Origin: Thermococcus siculi
GTDB lineage: Archaea; Methanobacteriota_B; Thermococci; Thermococcales; Thermococcaceae
Length of the DNA: 64,000 nucleotides
Assembly (NCBI RefSeq): GCF_002214505.1
Contig: NZ_CP015103.1
Span: forward strand, 1,674,001 to 1,738,000
Direction: 5' to 3'
This document shows positions 52,662-63,741 of the stretch, piece after piece (positions within the stretch are counted from its first letter, which is position 1; each line of letters opens with the position of its first letter). Under the pieces are notes generated by a model. The model was not told where the DNA came from and did no database searches. It saw nothing but the letters and a program-made list of their open reading frames with translations. Both the position numbers and the translations under genes were made by a program.

Positions 52662-54763
52662 GTTTCCGTAGGACATAGTTGTGTGGAAAGGCACAATCCT
52701 GTTGTAGAGCTTCCTTCCAAGTTCAAGGTTTCCGTAGGACATAGTTGTGTGGAAAGTGCTTATCACAAAAACAACGCCGGGAGGTGGTGAGGTGTTTCCG
52801 TAGGACATAGTTGTGTGGAAAGAGCGTTAGCGTCGCGGTGGGCGGCTCGGAGGTCTTTAGTTTCCGTAGGACATAGTTGTGTGGAAAGCGTGGGACGTGT
52901 GCCGTTTTTAGGTCACGTTACCAAGTTTCCGTAGGACATAGTTGTGTGGAAAGCGTGGAAGACTACCCCATCACAGCCGAGCAAGCGTACGAGGTTTCCG
53001 TAGGACATAGTTGTGTGGAAAGGAGCAAAAAAATTATTGCTACCCCTGCAAATAGGCGGTTTCCGTAGGACATAGTTGTGTGGAAAGAGGCCCTTCAGCT
53101 TGAACTCGGCCTCGTAGAGGTTCCAGTTTCCGTAGGACATAGTTGTGTGGAAAGTCTAATTTCCATGGTCAACTGAACACAACCAATGAAGTTTCCGTAG
53201 GACATAGTTGTGTGGAAAGAGACTGACCAGGAAACCGAGGACCCTGGCCCTGTCCAGTTTCCGTAGGACATAGTTGTGTGGAAAGCGAACTCGGATATCC
53301 AGAGAGTGGCTACATCTTCACCGTTTCCGTAGGACATAGTTGTGTGGAAAGCCGGAATGAAGGTTGAAGAACTGGGATTGAAGTTTGTGTTTCCGTAGGA
53401 CATAGTTGTGTGGAAAGCCCTGCTTCCGACCGGAGGCGCTTTCGCAGCGGGTTTCATTGTTTCCGTAGGACATAGTTGTGTGGAAAGTTGAGCAACCCCC
53501 CCAACACATCAACAGCCTTATCCGGGTGAGTTTCCGTAGGACATAGTTGTGTGGAAAGATGCTGGAGAGAAGAGACAAAAGAATCGGAGAATTCGGTTTC
53601 CGTAGGACATAGTTGTGTGGAAAGCGACCTCCCTTATGTGGACTCTCCAGGCCGTGGATGGTTTCCGTAGGACATAGTTGTGTGGAAAGGCGGAGTACTT
53701 ATCTGCGGCCCTGTACGAAAAAACTCCCCTGTTTCCGTAGGACATAGTTGTGTGGAAAGAGGATTGGGGCTGGCAGAACTACGCGGAGCTCATCGAGTGT
53801 TTCCGTAGGACATAGTTGTGTGGAAAGACAGGGTACGCAACGAAAGCAAGCAGGTGCCTGTTGGTTTCCGTAGGACATAGTTGTGTGGAAAGAACAACCG
53901 TTCATTTTGTCCCGGTGGACTGAACGCGTTTCCGTAGGACATAGTTGTGTGGAAAGCACCCCTCACCTTCCGCAGCTGGATTTTTAGGGGTTCTTGTTTC
54001 CGTAGGACATAGTTGTGTGGAAAGAAGAAGATGCAGGTGGTAGCCAATGAGGTTCCAAAGAGAGTTTCCGTAGGACATAGTTGTGTGGAAAGTCGTGCCT
54101 AGCGTGTCCTGGCTGGTCAGGGTCAGGGGTTTCCGTAGGACATAGTTGTGTGGAAAGCAGCGTCAGGATCAGCAGTATATTTAGCTGAAAGCTGTTTCCG
54201 TAGGACATAGTTGTGTGGAAAGAAGTAACTGTCAGACACTAGGCACACAATAGGCACACAAGTTTCCGTAGGACATAGTTGTGTGGAAAGCCCCCAGTTT
54301 CCACAATAATGGCCAAAAGGGCCCACGTTTCCGTAGGACATAGTTGTGTGGAAAGGTGCCCTGGCAGTAGGGGCGGGCACGGGTCGGGCTACAGATGGTT
54401 TCCGTAGGACATAGTTGTGTGGAAAGATAGGCCGAGACGACTTCCGAATTCTGGACACGCGAGTTTCCGTAGGACATAGTTGTGTGGAAAGCCAGCATCA
54501 GTACAATGTACATCGCCAGGACAAAGCCGTTTCCGTAGGACATAGTTGTGTGGAAAGAGGCGCTTGACGACGCCTTAACGCCCGATGAGGAGAAGATAAA
54601 GGTTTCCGTAGGACATAGTTGTGTGGAAAGTTTAACACGCTTTTGCCGGGGATTTGTCAACACCGGGGGGTTTCCGTAGGACATAGTTGTGTGGAAAGTC
54701 AGCTCGTCCACCAAAACGTTGAGATTGTCCTGCAGTTTCCGTAGGACATAGTTGTGTGGAAAA
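52662..54763 (+). CRISPR. CRISPR array 1 (32 repeats, 31 spacers)
   Basis: 29-base repeats begin GTTTCCGTAGGACATAG and end TTGTGTGGAAAG, separated by 35 to 44-base spacers. I counted 32 repeats from 52662 to 54735. The last (54735-54763) ends GGAAAA instead of GGAAAG, marking the leader-distal end. The 5' tag of crRNAs would be the last eight bases (GTGGAAAG) if Cas6 cuts as in Pyrococcus. The many open frames with repeated Phe-His-Thr-Thr are translations of the repeat, not proteins. Confidence 0.98.
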
Positions 54764-54834
54764 TAGCACTTTATGTTTTCTGAAGAGCATATTGTGTGGA
54801 TTTTATGGGGTGTTCTCCGTTGTGATCTGAAAAC

Positions 54835-54844
54835 TTTATATATA
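54835..54844 (+). promoter_or_regulatory. TATA box of the cas6-cas8-cas7-cas5 operon
   Basis: TTTATATATA lies 46-55 bases before the cas6 ATG at 54890 and 72 bases after the last repeat of array 1, so cas genes have their own promoter. Confidence 0.6.
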
Positions 54845-54889
54845 ACCACGTTTTATTTATGTCGCAGTCTTCGCAGCATGGTGACAGAT

Positions 54890-55615
54890 ATGCGAATAAA
54901 GCTGTCCCTACAGCCAACAGATGGCGAATTCAATCAACCAAACAAACATGCAGTCCAGGGATTCATCTACAACATGCTCAGGGATACCCGATACGAGGAA
55001 AGACACGACGAACCCAGGTTCAAGTTCTTTACGTTCTCGGACTTCTTTAGAGACCGGAAAGGAAGACTCACGTTCATAATATCCTCCCCAGAGAGAGGCT
55101 TTATAAACGCACTCTACAGCAAACTCAAAAAAAGAGAGCACGTCTACATCGGTAAGCACCAGCTAAAACTCCTCGAGGTCACAAAGTTTGATGTCCCGCT
55201 GAGAAACAGGTTCCAGACGGGTTCGCCAATTGTAATCTACAAGAACTCCAGAGAGAACGAGTACTTCAAGCTCCACACCCACCTTGATCTCAGGTTCTTC
55301 CTTGAGAGGCTAAAAGACAACGCAGAAAGGAAGTACAATGCCTTCTACGACGATGACTTCATTCTTGAGGGACCGCTCTTCGACAGAATCATCCCAAAGG
55401 TGCGCAATAACAATAAACTCGACGTCTACGTTAAGGTCGTGAAAAACGGAAGGCCATTTCCCGTTATAGGTTCAAACTGGGAACTTCTGGAAAAGGAACG
55501 GATAGAACCCCACGAGAGGAGATTTTACAGGTTCATCATGGAGGCAGGGTTGGGAGAGAAAAACAGCCTCGGCTTTGGGTTCATCAATCCCATAAGGGGG
55601 GAAGGACGTGCTTGA
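54890..55615 (+). CDS. cas6: CRISPR RNA endonuclease Cas6
   Basis: 241 residues from the ATG at 54890 (GGTGACAGAT upstream); an in-frame ATG at 54878 is less likely. N-terminal ferredoxin-like fold (MRIKLSLQPTDGEFNQPNKHAVQGFIYNML) and the C-terminal glycine-rich loop (GLGEKNSLGFGFI) of Cas6. It cuts repeats in the pre-crRNA of both arrays. The stop overlaps the cas8 start by eight bases. Confidence 0.92.
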   Translation: MRIKLSLQPTDGEFNQPNKHAVQGFIYNMLRDTRYEERHDEPRFKFFTFSDFFRDRKGRLTFIISSPERGFINALYSKLKKREHVYIGKHQLKLLEVTKFDVPLRNRFQTGSPIVIYKNSRENEYFKLHTHLDLRFFLERLKDNAERKYNAFYDDDFILEGPLFDRIIPKVRNNNKLDVYVKVVKNGRPFPVIGSNWELLEKERIEPHERRFYRFIMEAGLGEKNSLGFGFINPIRGEGRA

Positions 55616-56963
55616 CGCATATCTCAAAAACGGAGAGCTGTTTTTGAAGGAGATAGGTGTGACCGAAATCACGCCTGAAGCAATCTCTGGGGCGTATCTC
55701 AAGCCCATCAACGAGATGACAAATGGCTACGTCTACGTGGAGTCTGATACTGAAGCGATAGCAATCCTGAGGAGATTTGGGTTTGAATTATCTGGGAAGA
55801 CCAAGGATATTCTTTCAGGACTAACAAAGGGCAAAAAAGGCACGTGTTCCATCTGCGGAAAGAAAACAGAGGTAGTTCCCAACAGAGCTTTCATATTCCC
55901 ATTTGAGAGAAAGATAGACTCCATTGTGGACGAAAGTAACAGACTGAGCCTGTGCTCGGAGCACGCCTTCAAGCTGTATTCAGCCATGGCGTACCTCTAC
56001 ACAGTCCCCACCGGGGCGGGGATGCTGAAGTTTTTCTTCGACGCTCCCGAAAGGGATCTCAAAGCGTTCAAACGAACCTTCAAGGACGACTTCTGGAGAA
56101 GGAAATTCAAAGTGGAAAAACACGAGAAAAACGGAAAGCAGCAGTATTCCATAAAACTCTCCCTGGCCCTAAGCAGGTATCACCCCAACGAGGCTTTCTT
56201 CGCCGTCCTCCACGAATTCGTCAAGTTCCTCAAAGATGTTGACGAGCTTGAAGAAACCATCGAGGCAGGACGAACTGTTAGAACCTACCTAATATACGGC
56301 TCCGGGCAGTTCTACAGGGAGCACGTGATAGAGGGAACAACCCTTGAAAAGCTCATTGGATTCCTAGACAAGATTCAAGAGGCTGGAAAGGAGATGAGCT
56401 GGGGAACGAGGCACCTTGACATTTGGGACTCAGCGGTGGTCACCTTCTACGAGAGCCTCGAAATCCCGCGCGGAAAGGACCGCTCCAAGAACTACCTGGA
56501 GCGCGAGGAGTTTGTGAGGAAACTGCTTGAAGGAAGGTTCGATTTCGTTCTTTTGAACACAATATTTATGGAGCGGCTCAAGCGCAAGCTAGCCCTCCCG
56601 CCCTACTACTACACTTGGGCACACTCCTACCTGGAGGTATTTGGAGGTGGTGTTGTGGACGTTAAGACGTTTGAGCAGGTGAACGGTCTCGGCTACAGCC
56701 TCGGGATGAAGATGAGGGGAACGAACCTCGAGCGCTACCAGTGGGAACTCTTCAGGGCTAGGGGCTTTGAGGAGTTCCTTAACAAGCTGGTCGAGCTTCA
56801 GGCCAAACTCGAGGAAAGCCTCGACCTGAGGCCCGTGTATGAGAACCAGGGGGAGTGGAAGGTCGTGAAGGCCGTCCTCCTTAACGGCATGCTCAACGCC
56901 CTTCACGGGCAGGGAAAGAAGGATAACTCCGACAGGAACAACCCAAAGGAGGGGTCTGAATGA
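55608..56963 (+). CDS. cas8: Cas8 (Cst1, CXXC-CXXC type) large subunit of the Cascade
   Basis: 451 residues. It starts MLDAYLKNGELFLKEIGVTEI. A zinc-ribbon-like part has CSICGKK at residue about 83 and LCSEHAF about 40 residues later, the pair that defines the Cst1 (CXXC-CXXC) family. The rest is helical. As the large subunit it recognises the PAM. Stop overlaps cas7 start by four bases. Thermococcales Cst systems are grouped with type I-B Tneap (formerly I-G). Confidence 0.88.
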   Translation: MLDAYLKNGELFLKEIGVTEITPEAISGAYLKPINEMTNGYVYVESDTEAIAILRRFGFELSGKTKDILSGLTKGKKGTCSICGKKTEVVPNRAFIFPFERKIDSIVDESNRLSLCSEHAFKLYSAMAYLYTVPTGAGMLKFFFDAPERDLKAFKRTFKDDFWRRKFKVEKHEKNGKQQYSIKLSLALSRYHPNEAFFAVLHEFVKFLKDVDELEETIEAGRTVRTYLIYGSGQFYREHVIEGTTLEKLIGFLDKIQEAGKEMSWGTRHLDIWDSAVVTFYESLEIPRGKDRSKNYLEREEFVRKLLEGRFDFVLLNTIFMERLKRKLALPPYYYTWAHSYLEVFGGGVVDVKTFEQVNGLGYSLGMKMRGTNLERYQWELFRARGFEEFLNKLVELQAKLEESLDLRPVYENQGEWKVVKAVLLNGMLNALHGQGKKDNSDRNNPKEGSE

Positions 56964-57943
56964 AGGCGATTGAGGTTGTTACCCTTACAAAAGTAGAGGG
57001 AGCAAATCTGAACTCAAACGGAACCGAAGGCGTTATAGCGGTCCTCAAAAAGGTCCGCGACCCGGTTGATGGGAAGGAGTACGTCCGCGTGAGCGGCCAG
57101 AGCACCAAATATCACCTCAGGATGCTTCTCAAGGAACTCGGCTGGGAGCTTAGCCAGGTCGTACCCAAGAGCGAGGGCGGCCAGAAGGTCATAGTCTCCC
57201 TCGGCGAGCCTCACAACTACATAGACGACGACCTCTTTGGGTACATGATAGCCAAGAAGGTCGATGGGAAGAACGCGACCCTCAGGAGAACGGCCGTCGT
57301 CAGGACGAACGGTATGATATCCCTCTTCCCCTACCAGGAGGACAGGGACTTCGGAGTCCGCTACGATCCAAGCGGCGACAACCACAACATATACGAGACG
57401 GAGATAACCACCAACGTCATGAGGGGCAACTTCTTCATTGAACTGGACAGACTTGGCGTCTTCAAAGAGGGCCTTGAGGTTCCAAAGCTCCAGGGGCTTG
57501 AGGCGAGGAAGGAGAAGGACGCCACAGGAAAGGAGGTCACCTTCTACGTCCTCCCGAAGAAGGAGAGGGAAAAGCGCCTGAAGGCCCTGCTTGAGGCGAT
57601 AATGCAGTACTACGGCGGCGCAAAGCTCAGCAACTTCTTCACCAAGGTCTATCCGGAGGTCATGGTCGTCTCCCTGCTGAAGCACAAGATCCCCGTCATC
57701 GGTGACGCACTTCGCGTGAAGCCCGGCTATGTTGATGGCAAGCTCGTCCTCGACGTTGAGCTATTGAAAGAAACCATCGAAACCTTCGAAGACAAGATAG
57801 AGAAGCTCTACATCGGCCTCTTCGAGAACCGCTTCGCCAACGTGGACGAGCTGAGAAAGGCCTTTGAAGGCTCCGAAAAGGTCGAGGTCCTCAGCATGAG
57901 GGAGCTGAAGGGAAGAATAGAAAACCTTAAGCTCGGTGAGTGA
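56960..57943 (+). CDS. cas7: Cas7 (Cst2/DevR) Cascade backbone subunit
   Basis: 327 residues. Typical start AIEVVTLTKVEGANLNSNG, then QSTKYHLRMLLKEL, LRRTAVVRTNGMISLFPYQEDRDFGVRY and YETEITTNVMRGNFFIELDRLGVF, the DevR/Cst2 pattern. Multiple copies bind the crRNA along the Cascade. Overlaps cas8 and nearly abuts cas5 (start at 57945 or 57936). Confidence 0.94.
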   Translation: MKAIEVVTLTKVEGANLNSNGTEGVIAVLKKVRDPVDGKEYVRVSGQSTKYHLRMLLKELGWELSQVVPKSEGGQKVIVSLGEPHNYIDDDLFGYMIAKKVDGKNATLRRTAVVRTNGMISLFPYQEDRDFGVRYDPSGDNHNIYETEITTNVMRGNFFIELDRLGVFKEGLEVPKLQGLEARKEKDATGKEVTFYVLPKKEREKRLKALLEAIMQYYGGAKLSNFFTKVYPEVMVVSLLKHKIPVIGDALRVKPGYVDGKLVLDVELLKETIETFEDKIEKLYIGLFENRFANVDELRKAFEGSEKVEVLSMRELKGRIENLKLGE

Positions 57944-57944
57944 C

Positions 57945-58628
57945 GTGCTGGGCCTCGTGGTTGAGGTCAGGCCCCTGCAGGCCCATTTCAGGGTGCCGTA
58001 TAACTCGCTCCTCCTCGACAGCTACCCATTTCCACCAAGGACCACCGCTATAGGAATGCTAGCTGGCGCGATGGGCCTCCCCGAAGAGGGATTCAAAAAG
58101 CTGCTCAAAGAGCTTCGTTACGGGGTTATCATTGAGGACCCTGGTTCAAGGGTCGAGGAAAAGGCCGCGATATTCAAGAGCGCAAACTCCCCACTGTACC
58201 CAATAACGAAGACCCTCTTCCACATGCCGAAGTACAGAATGTTCTTCGCGGGGGACGAGGGGACGATAGAGAAAGCCCATGACGCACTCTTAGACCCTGT
58301 TTTCACACCATATCTCGGGGACAGCGAAAGCGTGGTCTACCCCGCGAGGAAGGACTACGTCCGCATGGTCGATGTCGGAAAGGGGGAAGAATCAACGCTC
58401 AGGAGCGTCATCCCAGGGGAGGCATACGAGAGAGGCGCTAGGTTCATCCTAATGAGAAAGAACAACCTCTTTCCGAGGGAGTACAGGATGCCCGTGGACT
58501 TTGTTTACAGGGGAAAGGCAAGGAGGGCCATCTATAGAAAGGTGGTGGCCTTTGCAGGGGGCTTCGTGGAACTGGCCAATCCGGTGAAGGTGCTACTCTT
58601 CGAAGGAGAACCGGTTTTTGTCTTTTGA
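57945..58628 (+). CDS. cas5: Cas5 (Cas5t) Cascade subunit
   Basis: 227 residues from GTG at 57945, chosen for GGTGAG just upstream; GTG at 57936 is possible (230 residues). Start LGLVVEVRPLQAHFRVPYNSLLLDSYPFPPRTTAIGML is the Cas5 signature; the C-terminal half has VYPARKDYVRMVDVG and FVYRGKARRAIYRK. It caps the 5' handle of the crRNA. Last gene before CRISPR array 2. Confidence 0.94.
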   Translation: MLGLVVEVRPLQAHFRVPYNSLLLDSYPFPPRTTAIGMLAGAMGLPEEGFKKLLKELRYGVIIEDPGSRVEEKAAIFKSANSPLYPITKTLFHMPKYRMFFAGDEGTIEKAHDALLDPVFTPYLGDSESVVYPARKDYVRMVDVGKGEESTLRSVIPGEAYERGARFILMRKNNLFPREYRMPVDFVYRGKARRAIYRKVVAFAGGFVELANPVKVLLFEGEPVFVF

Positions 58629-59088: not shown

Positions 59089-61977
59089 GTTTCCGTAGAA
59101 CATGGTTGTGTGGAAAGTACTTTTTTTGCCACTTATCATTTTGGATTTAGTGGCGACATGTTTCCGTAGAACATGGTTGTGTGGAAAGACAGAGAATGCA
59201 ATCTTCATTCGCCTGCTGGATAAGGTTTCCGTAGAACATGGTTGTGTGGAAAGAAATGCCCTCCAGCCCCAGTGCGAGGATTGAATACTCGTTTCCGTAG
59301 AACATGGTTGTGTGGAAAGGACCGAACGGCTGGCTGGGGGGAAGTTTTCTGAACTATGTTTCCGTAGAACATGGTTGTGTGGAAAGGCATTTCCAGCACT
59401 GCCTCTCCGTCTTGGCTCCTAAACGTTTCCGTAGAACATGGTTGTGTGGAAAGTATATGTTGTTGTCGTTGTTCTTTTCTGGGGTGGTATGTTTCCGTAG
59501 AACATGGTTGTGTGGAAAGCTCAATACAATACAATACAATACAATAATGATAATGGTTTCCGTAGAACATGGTTGTGTGGAAAGTCAGCACTACCACTAT
59601 CCGCCGCAAGCCAAGTCGTGCGTTTCCGTAGAACATGGTTGTGTGGAAAGACAAAATATTCGGGAATGGCGGGGCACATTATACCGGGGTTTCCGTAGAA
59701 CATGGTTGTGTGGAAAGAGAGCCTGCAAAATCATAGCTTCCGTATAGTCCTGAACGTTTCCGTAGAACATGGTTGTGTGGAAAGAGAGTCATTGGCATCA
59801 CCCTCGCAGGAATCTTCTAAGTTTCCGTAGAACATGGTTGTGTGGAAAGGCGTGAAACTTCGCCAGTGGCTCGATCACTCGCGCCTCGTTTCCGTAGAAC
59901 ATGGTTGTGTGGAAAGAACTCATCGAGGAGCGCATCTTCCACCGCCTCCTTTATGTTTCCGTAGAACATGGTTGTGTGGAAAGATTCTCAATGGTTCTGA
60001 GCTGATTCTCCCTGACGGTTTCCGTAGAACATGGTTGTGTGGAAAGGGGCTCTCCCTTGGTGAAATCATAGAAGTTGCACTAGGTTTCCGTAGAACATGG
60101 TTGTGTGGAAAGTTTTCAGAAACATCGGCTTCAAAAAAAACATTATATACGTTTCCGTAGAACATGGTTGTGTGGAAAGGACATGCTTGACCCTTACATG
60201 CCTCAAATGTAAGGTTTCCGTAGAACATGGTTGTGTGGAAAGTGAGAGCACTACTTGGATAGCGGCCGACAACGGGGACGTTTCCGTAGAACATGGTTGT
60301 GTGGAAAGGCTCATTCTGCCAGACCTCGCGGTAGGCATCAACTTGTTTCCGTAGAACATGGTTGTGTGGAAAGCACAGACCGACGCGGTTCAGGAGTACC
60401 TCAACTGGCGTTTCCGTAGAACATGGTTGTGTGGAAAGTAGCACTCATGCCAAAAGAGTTCGCCAACTACCTTTGTTTCCGTAGAACATGGTTGTGTGGA
60501 AAGACGACCTTAGACCCTGGAGGATCTCATCCCAGGATGATGTTTCCGTAGAACATGGTTGTGTGGAAAGCTGGATAATGGTTTCTGATTTCTAATCTTT
60601 TTTCGGTTTCCGTAGAACATGGTTGTGTGGAAAGAAGTGTCCACCTGCTCCAGTCCTCGGATTGAACACCTGGTTTCCGTAGAACATGGTTGTGTGGAAA
60701 GTGGTCATACACTATCAGAGAGTCCTTTAGGTCAGGTGTCTATGTCGGACACAACTATCCAAAGCATGGTTGTGTGGAAAGACTTATATAGTATGAATAT
60801 ATTGTTTCCGTAGAACATGGTTGTGTGGAAAGAACTGCACAAAAACCGGTATTCTGGGACGTGTTCTTTTGGTTTCCGTAGAACATGGTTGTGTGGAAAG
60901 TGGTCATACACTATCACTGGTATGCCCAGTTCACTGGTTTCCGTAGAACATGGTTGTGTGGAAAGCTGCTCACTCCTCCTCGGAGCGAGCATTATAATGG
61001 GTGTTTCCGTAGAACATGGTTGTGTGGAAAGACGTCCTGAACAAGTGTGAGCATTGATGTATAATTGTGCGTTTCCGTAGAACATGGTTGTGTGGAAAGT
61101 GTCTAAGGTCCTTCGTCATAATATGACGCCAGGACGTTTCCGTAGAACATGGTTGTGTGGAAAGCAGGTGATCTGGCTGTTTTTTGGGGCTGCCTTTGCT
61201 ATTTCGCGTTTCCGTAGAACATGGTTGTGTGGAAAGAAGAATAGCCTCCCGAATGCTCGTCCGCAACCAGCGTCCAGTTTCCGTAGAACATGGTTGTGTG
61301 GAAAGAAGATAGCCTTTGCATCACGTAATGCCTTTCTGAACTCGTTTCCGTAGAACATGGTTGTGTGGAAAGCTCAGAGAGTCCTTTGGAAATCCTGCTG
61401 CCCGAGGAGTTTCCGTAGAACATGGTTGTGTGGAAAGACTAGACCGTCGACGGTGGAAACTTTCAAAAAGCGCTGTTTCCGTAGAACATGGTTGTGTGGA
61501 AAGAAGAAGGTTGAGTTTTACGATGAGCAGGGACAGCTTTTGGGTTTCCGTAGAACATGGTTGTGTGGAAAGTTGATGTCCTCACCGATCGAAGTTGCGG
61601 GGGATCCTAGGAGTTTCCGTAGAACATGGTTGTGTGGAAAGAAGTCGCCGTCCCCGAAAACTGGGCGGTCTTCAAAGGAAAGTTTCCGTAGAACATGGTT
61701 GTGTGGAAAGTTGCCCCTGTATGCTGTCCTCCCAAGCCCCTACACACTGTGTTTCCGTAGAACATGGTTGTGTGGAAAGTACCTGCTTTCTGCCCTTTTA
61801 CCCAGCCAGACTACCAGTTTCCGTAGAACATGGTTGTGTGGAAAGGCATAAGCTAGATAGCCCATAGAGGAGTATTCCAACGGTTTCCGTAGAACATGGT
61901 TGTGTGGAAAGGCTGTGATAACTACCGTGTCCCCCGTCACGTTGTAACGTTTCCGTAGAACATGGTTGTGTGGAAAG
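59089..61977 (+). CRISPR. CRISPR array 2 (43 intact repeats plus one disrupted)
   Basis: 29-base repeats begin GTTTCCGTAGAACATGG and end TTGTGTGGAAAG, differing from array 1 at repeat positions 11 (A for G) and 16 (G for A). I counted 43 intact-looking copies and one disrupted copy (60738-60781). Spacers are mostly 34-43 bases. A further degenerate copy follows at 62014, at the start of cas1. Several spacers resemble each other (see findings). The array separates the Cascade genes from the adaptation and cas3 genes. Confidence 0.98.
60738..60781 (+). repeat. Disrupted repeat unit inside array 2
   Basis: Where repeat 26 is expected there is GTCTATGTCGGACACAAC and TATCCAAAG followed by only the last 17 bases of a normal repeat (CATGGTTGTGTGGAAAG, 60765-60781). 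ACACAACTAT at 60749-60758 is the reverse complement of ATAGTTGTGT from the array 1 repeat, and ACACAAC pairs with GTTGTGT (60769-60775) to give a hairpin. The next spacer (60782-60803) is only 22 bases. Confidence 0.75.
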
Positions 61978-62013
61978 CGAAAGTTTGAATTCCTCGCTTG
62001 GGGTATTATGTGG

Positions 62014-62042
62014 ATTTCCGTAGAACGCAGTCGTGCGGTGAT
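62014..62042 (+). repeat. Terminal degenerate repeat overlapping the cas1 ribosome site
   Basis: ATTTCCGTAGAACGCAG then TCGTGCGGTGAT keeps the first half of the array 2 repeat (TTTCCGTAGAAC) but diverges at the 3' half. The changed end GCGGTGATG supplies the GGTGATG ribosome site of cas1 (ATG at 62046). A spacer-length segment (61978-62013, 36 bases) separates it from the last intact repeat. Confidence 0.8.
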
Positions 62043-62045
62043 GCT

Positions 62046-62999
62046 ATGAAACGGCCCGTGTACATAACCCAGATGGGGGTGCTTGAGAGGAGGGGCAACA
62101 CCCTCTTCCTTGAGAACGAGAACGGAAAAAAGGCGATACCCATAAACTCGACCAGCGAAATCCATTGCTTTAAGCCGGTGAGTCTCACCAGCGGGGCCAT
62201 GAAGCTCCTGTCGGAGAAAAACGTGCCCGCCCACTTCTACAACAAGTACGGCTATTATAGAGGTTCCTACATGCCGATCGAGGGGCAAATAAGCGGGACC
62301 GTCGTTATAAAACAGGCCAAGCACTACCTCGACCCCGAAAAGAGGCTTTACATAGCGGAGCAGTTTCTGGAGGGCATAAAAGCCTCGATGGTGGCCCTTC
62401 TCAAATCTCAGAGGGCGGACTACAAAAGCATAGCAGAGATTGAAGTGGAGGGAACCACCCCGGTGGAGCTTATGGGGATTGAGAGCCAGCTCTGGAGGGA
62501 GTTCTACGGGATATACGCAACCCTCCTGAAGCACTTTGAGTTCAATGAGAGGAACCGCAGGCCACCGCGGGACGAGGTGAACGCCCTGATAAGCCTCGGA
62601 AACTCCGTTCTGTATACCGTAACACTCTCTGAGATTCGTAAGACTTACCTCCACCCTGCCGTCAGCTTCCTGCACGAGCCCCTCGAGAGGCGCTATTCAC
62701 TGGCCCTCGATATAGCGGACATCTTCAAGCCCATAACCGTCTTCAGGGTCATCCTCAGGCTCGTGAACAGGCGACAGATAAGGGAGGAACACTTTGAAAG
62801 GGACGTTGGAGTGATGCTCAACAGAGAGGGCCTCAAAACGTTCCTAAGCGAGCTAAACGGCGAGCTGGGCAAGAAGATTCTCCATCCAAGGCTCAAGAGA
62901 AAGACCTCAGTGCGCTATTTAATCCGGCTCGAGGGATATTCCCTCGTCAGGCACTTCCTCGGGGACAGGGAGTACAGATCCCTGCGGGCGTGGTGGTGA
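62046..62999 (+). CDS. cas1: CRISPR integrase Cas1
   Basis: 317 residues from the ATG at 62046. The N-terminal beta domain (KRPVYITQMGVLERRGNTLF) is followed by the helical catalytic domain with Glu in VEGTTPVELMGIESQLWREFY, His in VSFLHEPLERRYSLALDIADIFKP and the acidic partner residues after it. With Cas2 it inserts spacers next to the leaders. Stop overlaps the cas2 start (TGATG). Confidence 0.96.
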   Translation: MKRPVYITQMGVLERRGNTLFLENENGKKAIPINSTSEIHCFKPVSLTSGAMKLLSEKNVPAHFYNKYGYYRGSYMPIEGQISGTVVIKQAKHYLDPEKRLYIAEQFLEGIKASMVALLKSQRADYKSIAEIEVEGTTPVELMGIESQLWREFYGIYATLLKHFEFNERNRRPPRDEVNALISLGNSVLYTVTLSEIRKTYLHPAVSFLHEPLERRYSLALDIADIFKPITVFRVILRLVNRRQIREEHFERDVGVMLNREGLKTFLSELNGELGKKILHPRLKRKTSVRYLIRLEGYSLVRHFLGDREYRSLRAWW

Positions 63000-63256
63000 T
63001 GTACGTCATCGTGGTTTATGATGTGGACGTTAAGCGCGTTGCGAAGGTGCACCGCTTCCTGAGAACCCACCTCCACTGGCGTCAGAACAGCGTCTTCGAG
63101 GGAGAAGTCAGCAGAGCACAGCTTTACGAAATAAAAAGGACACTCGAGGGCCTCATCGATGGGGAGGACTCCGTACTGATTTACGAGCTTCCGAACGATA
63201 GCTTCAACCTCCACGTCATCGGCGTGGACAAAAGCCCGGTGGGGGATGTAATTTGA
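62999..63256 (+). CDS. cas2: CRISPR adaptation protein Cas2
   Basis: 85 residues from the ATG at 62999 that overlaps the cas1 stop. MYVIVVYDVDVKRVAKVHRFLRTHLHWRQNSVFEGEVS is the Cas2 ferredoxin-like fold with the conserved Asp in YDVD. Scaffold of the Cas1-Cas2 integrase. Stop overlaps the cas4 TTG start. Confidence 0.96.
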   Translation: MYVIVVYDVDVKRVAKVHRFLRTHLHWRQNSVFEGEVSRAQLYEIKRTLEGLIDGEDSVLIYELPNDSFNLHVIGVDKSPVGDVI

Positions 63257-63741
63257 GGATAACGGGCGTTATGATTCAATACTACTTCACATGCAAGAGG
63301 GAGCTGTGGTTCTTCTCAAGGGGACTTCAGTTTGACTTTGAGAACGAGGACATGCTGATCGGCAGGGTTATCCATCAAGAGTCCTACGACAGGGAGTGGA
63401 AGGAGGTCATGCTTGGAGATGTCAAGCTCGACGTCGTTGTCAAGCGAGGGGGCGTTGAGGTTGTTGAGGTCAAAAAGAGTTCAAAGCTGGAAAAACCCGC
63501 CAGGTGGCAGCTGAAGTACTACCTCTACCTCCTAAAGAAGGCCGGTACAGATGCGAAGGGCGTAATTGCATACCCTGAAGAGGGCAGGAGAGAGGAGGTG
63601 GTCCTTTCCGATGAGGACATAGTTGTCCTGGAGGAGGCTATTAAGGATATCGAAAGGGTTATATCCCTTGATGTCCCTCCAAAAGCTGAGAAGAAACCGT
63701 ACTGCAAAAAATGCGCCTACAGAGATTTCTGCTGGGTGTGA
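63253..63741 (+). CDS. cas4: CRISPR exonuclease Cas4
   Basis: 162 residues from TTG at 63253 overlapping the cas2 stop (TTGA); ATG at 63271 (MIQYYFTCKRELWFF) is an alternative. RecB-like nuclease pattern: GRVIHQESYDREWKEV, LDVVVKRGGVEVVEVKKSSK, and Fe-S cysteines in YFTCKRELW and YCKKCAYRDFCWV. It trims prespacers to the right PAM end before integration. Confidence 0.93.
   Translation: MRITGVMIQYYFTCKRELWFFSRGLQFDFENEDMLIGRVIHQESYDREWKEVMLGDVKLDVVVKRGGVEVVEVKKSSKLEKPARWQLKYYLYLLKKAGTDAKGVIAYPEEGRREEVVLSDEDIVVLEEAIKDIERVISLDVPPKAEKKPYCKKCAYRDFCWV

Follow-up and report, generated by a model that had tools for sequence, protein, structure and literature searches.

What does it mean for a single CRISPR array to hold two spacers that align in one register and differ mainly at every third base? 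Spacers 3 and 24 of array 2 in Thermococcus siculi raise this question. The window analysed here, a stretch of 64,000 nucleotides, covers positions 1674001-1738000 of the 2,029,167-bp single-contig genome and contains two CRISPR arrays together with cas genes identified by model matches (Table 1).

A type I-B locus with two related spacers

The locus belongs to type I-B, because the genes for Cas6b, Cas8b, Cas7 and Cas5 occupy the space between the two arrays, with those for Cas1 and Cas4 located after array 2. Array 2 combines regular 29-nt repeats, identical in all 43 copies, with unique spacers of similar length (34-43 nt, one 102-nt unit excepted), and it is adjoined by the genes for Cas8b, Cas5, Cas7 and Cas6 and by adaptation genes. 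Judging from the repeat ending GTGTGGAAAG and the AT-rich leader upstream, its crRNA sense is probably the plus strand. The 102-nt unit, A2_25, is abnormal and includes a truncated internal repeat, GCATGGTTGTGTGGAAAG. It shares its start with A2_27 (Table 1), and the 14-nt stretch that follows this shared segment, TCAGAGAGTCCTTT, is also found in A2_34; by its make-up, the unit appears chimeric, composed of parts of other spacers.

Table 1. Features of the CRISPR locus, with positions counted from the first base of the window
Feature	Position	Strand	Details
CRISPR array 1	52662..54763	+	32 copies of GTTTCCGTAGGACATAGTTGTGTGGAAAG
Spacers A1_5, A1_6, A1_10	52954-53322		targets in pT26-2-family elements
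Cas6b	54773..55615	+	model match
Cas8b (type I-B)	55608..56963	+	model match
Cas7	56960..57943	+	model match
Cas5	57936..58628	+	model match
CRISPR array 2	59089..61977	+	43 copies of GTTTCCGTAGAACATGGTTGTGTGGAAAG
Spacer A2_3	59254..59290	+	AAATGCCCTCCAGCCCCAGTGCGAGGATTGAATACTC; 37 nt, near the leader, presumably younger than A2_24
Preferred coding reading of A2_3	59256..59288	-	VFNPRTGAGGH; six-frame comparison and codon model
Spacer A2_8	59585..59621	+	candidate coding partner of A2_18; minus-strand TTWLAADSG
Spacer A2_12	59850-59887		core matches a repeated motif
Spacer A2_18	60243..60279	+	partner of A2_8; plus-strand TTWIAADNG
Spacer A2_19	60309-60344		targets t26-6p
Spacer A2_20	60374-60409		targets t26-6p
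Spacer A2_24	60635..60672	+	AAGTGTCCACCTGCTCCAGTCCTCGGATTGAACACCTG; 38 nt, leader-far, presumably the older of the pair
Preferred coding reading of A2_24	60637..60672	-	QVFNPRTGAGGH; six-frame comparison and codon model
Unit A2_25	60702-60803		abnormal 102-nt spacer unit
Spacer A2_27	60901..60936	+	first 16 nt identical to first 16 nt of A2_25, remainder unrelated
Cas1	61998..62999	+	model match
Cas4	63253..63741	+	model match

Codon-patterned divergence of spacers 3 and 24

The initial annotation had singled out this pair, and its numbering and coordinates proved correct on rechecking. Aligned without gaps in one register, the two spacers share 26 of 37 bases, and nine of the 11 mismatches (positions 3, 6, 9, 12, 15, 21, 23, 24, 33, 36 and 37) fall at positions divisible by three. 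At a match probability of 0.25 per base, the probability of at least 26 identities in 37 is 9.5e-9, corresponding to about 2.5e-5 over the 2,628 same-register pairs of both arrays, while the probability that at least nine of 11 mismatches fall into one codon class is 2.4e-4. Moreover, the codon-model fit of the pair was reached by none of 5000 column permutations, and an all-against-all ungapped comparison of the spacers of both arrays returned it as the strongest pair. A chance origin of the likeness is excluded. The shared register, the degree of identity and the codon-patterned mismatches bear out the earlier proposal that both spacers came from homologous protein-coding sequences of two diverged relatives, taken at exactly the same site.

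Spacer-repeat units are known to be duplicated in CRISPR arrays, and in principle one spacer could have arisen from the other by duplication followed by divergence within the array. However, such drift would not respect codons, because spacers are untranslated, whereas the observed changes keep to one codon class (9/11; 0/5000 permutations). In addition, a spacer divergence of 30% by mutation is not credible next to 43 identical repeats. The codon pattern already refutes this explanation, whose probability we consider negligible.

Reading frame and strand of the target gene

The initial annotation had translated both spacers in the plus frame, deriving the peptide KCPPAPV-x-GLNT. Its translations, KCPPAPVRGLNT and KCPPAPVLGLNT, were reproduced, and this frame is open in both spacers. 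However, minus frame -2 has the same wobble positions as the plus frame, so that third-position periodicity cannot choose the strand, and the minus frame yields VFNPRTGAGGH in both spacers, with 11 of 11 residues identical and all differences in the 11 full codons synonymous. This identity is complete because the change at positions 23 and 24, which gives CGA/CTC (Arg/Leu) on the plus strand, gives CGC/AGG (Arg in both cases) on the other. At the margins, the 5'-end codon of the minus frame must change its amino acid (xGA versus CAG), as must one end codon of the plus frame, the 13th, differ (Cxx versus TGx). In a six-frame comparison of all spacers, the VFNPRTGAGGH pair obtained the top score of 63, compared with 30-39 for the top-scoring pairs of 12 shuffled sets; the residue score of the plus frame, by our own count, is about 62 and thus near that of the minus frame.

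A codon substitution model that averages across levels of divergence and selection, run with element, host or flat codon usage, favoured the minus strand with posteriors of 0.956, 0.994 and 0.87, respectively, and assigned at most 0.001 to a non-coding origin. In control comparisons of array spacers with diverged protospacers located in known genes of pT26-2-family elements, the model identified the correct frame for A1_5 (four elements), A1_10 (three), A2_20, A2_19 (two) and A2_14. For five spacers lacking a clear coding signal, A1_6 and A2_28 included, it made no confident coding call.

It is unlikely that the same events involved a gene on the plus strand, encoding KCPPAPV[R/L]GLNT. Such a gene would account for the nine third-position mismatches and for the open frame, and it retains a posterior of 0.043 with element, 0.005 with host and 0.13 with flat codon usage. 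However, it requires an Arg-to-Leu exchange through two substitutions in a single codon as well as a changed 13th codon, involves the rare codons CGA and TTG, has the lower likelihood under all three codon usages, and its peptide is unmatched in 94 Thermococcales genomes and IMG/VR. The choice of strand is based on one double substitution and on codon usage, with 0.5-13% of the posterior staying with the plus strand. On this sequence basis, the minus strand of the spacers is the most probable coding strand of the target gene, whose peptide would be [Q/R]VFNPRTGAGGH and then Phe; should the PAM be YYA, the minus reading would go on with H-F.

PAM-anchored uptake and same-register pairs in Thermococcales

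In mobile elements, protospacers of spacers from arrays of this repeat type are directly preceded on their 5' side by TTA (six), TCA (four), CTA (two) or CCA (two), together 14 of 23 cases. The motif varies with the repeat type: among diverged protospacers, arrays with GTTTCCGTAG...GTGTGGAAAG repeats mostly show YYA (14/23), and those with ...GAATTGAAAG repeats show CCN. As a YYA-type motif lies 5' of most protospacers, acquisition is PAM-anchored; two related invaders therefore offer the same cut-out, and same-register pairs are to be expected. By extension from other spacers of this repeat type, a PAM probably also flanks the site sampled by spacers 3 and 24.

For a broader view, 1,817 spacers were extracted around cas1 from about 65 Thermococcales genomes. 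Arrays were located by the position of Cas1; a leader pattern was discarded as too weakly conserved to locate arrays in relatives. Within this set, the spacer 3/24 pair scores 15.0, a value exceeded once in one of two reversed-sequence decoy sets and never in the other; a score of 14 was exceeded twice and once. Codon-aware comparison also linked spacers of loci L212 and L220, from two other genomes, in the same register (32/37; MFLVGFQKFLE and MFLVGVQKFME), spacers of L175 and L179 on opposite strands (LVIGSIAMLAM in both), a KGVYAIK pair of L156 and L212, and a diverged pair within L219 that is offset by 1. A weaker same-register diverged pair lies in one array of L221 (9020-9059 and 9244-9281; AEDWEEW in the minus frame of both). 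Same-register pairs thus recur in Thermococcales, and spacers 3 and 24 are a good instance of this general pattern.

The between-genome pair in the same register, together with the probable intra-array pair of L221 (offset 0) and the L219 pair (offset 1), all from the same repeat type, might point to a true adaptation hot spot beyond PAM choice or to guidance of the newer uptake by the older spacer (priming). We consider this improbable. With a PAM at roughly one in 16 positions, about a quarter of overlapping diverged pairs should, by a rough estimate, share their register through PAM choice alone, and the few credible pairs fit this share. Furthermore, primed uptake normally draws on other parts of the same element.

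A second candidate homologous coding pair, A2_8 and A2_18, lies on opposite strands with a 5-nt shift; its codon fit was reached by 3 of 5000 column permutations.

Search for the source element

In 94 Thermococcales genomes, IMG/VR, GTDB genomes and pT26-2-family elements, no protospacer of spacers 3 and 24 stood out from noise. As degenerate DNA, KCPPAPV-x-GLNT had no match in the 94 genomes (at most two mismatches) or IMG/VR, and the minus-strand peptide had none in Thermococcales (three mismatches in 35 nt) or IMG/VR; across the 94 genomes, the degenerate patterns of both peptides retrieved only the two spacers or chance matches. A protein search of these genomes likewise returned only the two spacers, and it can detect a peptide of this kind, because they were recovered with E = 5e-6 and 2e-5. 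When retrieved elements and cas regions, translated in six frames into 3.9 million residues, were scanned, no homologue rose above noise, while the A1_5 control peptide was recovered in every pT26-2-family element listed. Searches with X-padded short peptides by tblastn and in Pfam, PHROGs and PDB produced nothing useful and carry no weight, since a control 13-mer of pT26-2-family elements was also missed by tblastn in a plasmid collection that contains pT26-2.

Several candidates were rejected. A match in the host's own genome at 502756 is a 17-nt chance match, and looser patterns of the minus-strand peptide gave chance hits only; these fell outside the reading frame, within short ORFs, or in GC-rich or unrelated phage sequences. 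The two GTDB-wide matches of this peptide are either misframed or confined to an ORF of 31 residues. In three Thermococcus genomes, FNPR[PN]G[LI]GGL candidates, one of them 11 kb from another protospacer, lie outside real genes.

The pT26-2 family, comprising here pT26-2, pGE2 and two integrated elements of a 2,088,737-bp genome, is matched with the same silent-site pattern by other spacers of the two arrays, A1_5 and A1_10 in t26-11p and A2_19 and A2_20 in t26-6p. In contrast, neither peptide of the A2_3/A2_24 pair occurs in it above noise, whereas the A1_5 control peptide is present unchanged, so no member of the family seen here is the source. The highest six-frame scores in it, 41 and 39, come from matches that the pattern search had already picked out and that lie out of frame or in short ORFs; shuffled peptides reach up to 37, and the control peptide scores 68. 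The targets of A1_5, A1_6 and A1_10 lie within about 220 bp at t26-11p and its start, and the t26-6p targets of A2_19 and A2_20 carry Pfam pT26-6p domains. The core of A2_12 corresponds to a motif that recurs across many Thermococcales genomes and that at one locus overlaps the start region of a MazE/AbrB-like gene; no self-targeting by A2_12 was seen, the host genome having no second copy at up to three mismatches.

We lean towards a source in a Thermococcales virus or plasmid family that has no member in the searched collections and is known by its spacers only, with the strongly conserved protein motif [QR]VFNPRTGAGGHF, in which synonymous drift at a constrained site would have forced the site to be stored twice.

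Proposed history of the spacer pair

It is highly probable that the type I-B system took the same PAM-anchored site of a conserved gene twice, the donors being two diverged representatives of a single family of viruses or plasmids. Provided that new spacers enter at the leader end, spacer 24 would be the older of the two memories, given its distance from the leader. As the invader drifted at synonymous sites, 11 mismatches to spacer 24 would then have built up, including one at seed position 3, so that spacer 24 probably no longer cut the newcomer, from which spacer 3 would have been added later. Every sixth position is known to go unread by type I effectors. Four of the 11 mismatches between the spacer-24 crRNA and the spacer-3 target occupy such positions (6, 12, 24 and 36), and one (3) lies in the seed. 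A loss of interference followed by re-immunisation is plausible, with the order of uptake and the mobile-element source forming part of the same presumed sequence of events.

Paralogues, or two copies within one element, could also have supplied the two spacers: gene duplicates occur in Thermococcales elements, and orthologues and paralogues are inseparable by spacers alone. Nevertheless, 11 fully kept residues combined with near-saturated silent sites would be more usual for orthologues of separate lineages, and no genome with two copies was found in the Thermococcales genome searches. We therefore regard this origin as quite improbable, slightly more so than a plus-strand gene, and favour two related elements.

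Viewed in this way, spacers 3 and 24 record host-invader evolution like a small fossil: the protein was kept while silent sites were nearly randomised, and a second immunisation of the host at the same place appears to have been needed. VFNPRTGAGGH and the corresponding degenerate DNA, GTNTTYAAYCCNMGNACNGGNGCNGGNGGNCAYTT, provide a probe for the element in vent metagenomes.

Comparison with known systems

A recent preprint describes 620 Thermococcales virus genomes of 19 families from vent metagenomes, reporting that most families have no isolate relative and that 33% of spacers were matched (Catchpole et al., 2026; PMC12934983). The study comprises 39,177 spacers. There, too, multiple spacers are directed against related virus genomes, and the source element of spacers 3 and 24 may be among these genomes. 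However, matching in that work requires at least 90% identity, which leaves spacers sharing 70% of their bases, as this pair does, unconnected, and its main text mentions neither PAMs nor frame-aware spacer pairs. Codon-aware comparison between spacers joins what such matching leaves apart and yields a reading frame without a reference genome.

The spacer pair is a well-supported case in which CRISPR sampled a diverging family of invaders more than once, and it points to no new system. In its repeat type, its Cas6b, Cas8b, Cas7, Cas5, Cas1 and Cas4 proteins, its spacers of about 37 nt and its PAM-anchored protospacers, the locus resembles the type I-B arrays of Thermococcales with GTTTCCGTAGAAC....GTGTGGAAAG repeats; the machinery shows no difference from theirs, and the special feature is the spacer pair itself.
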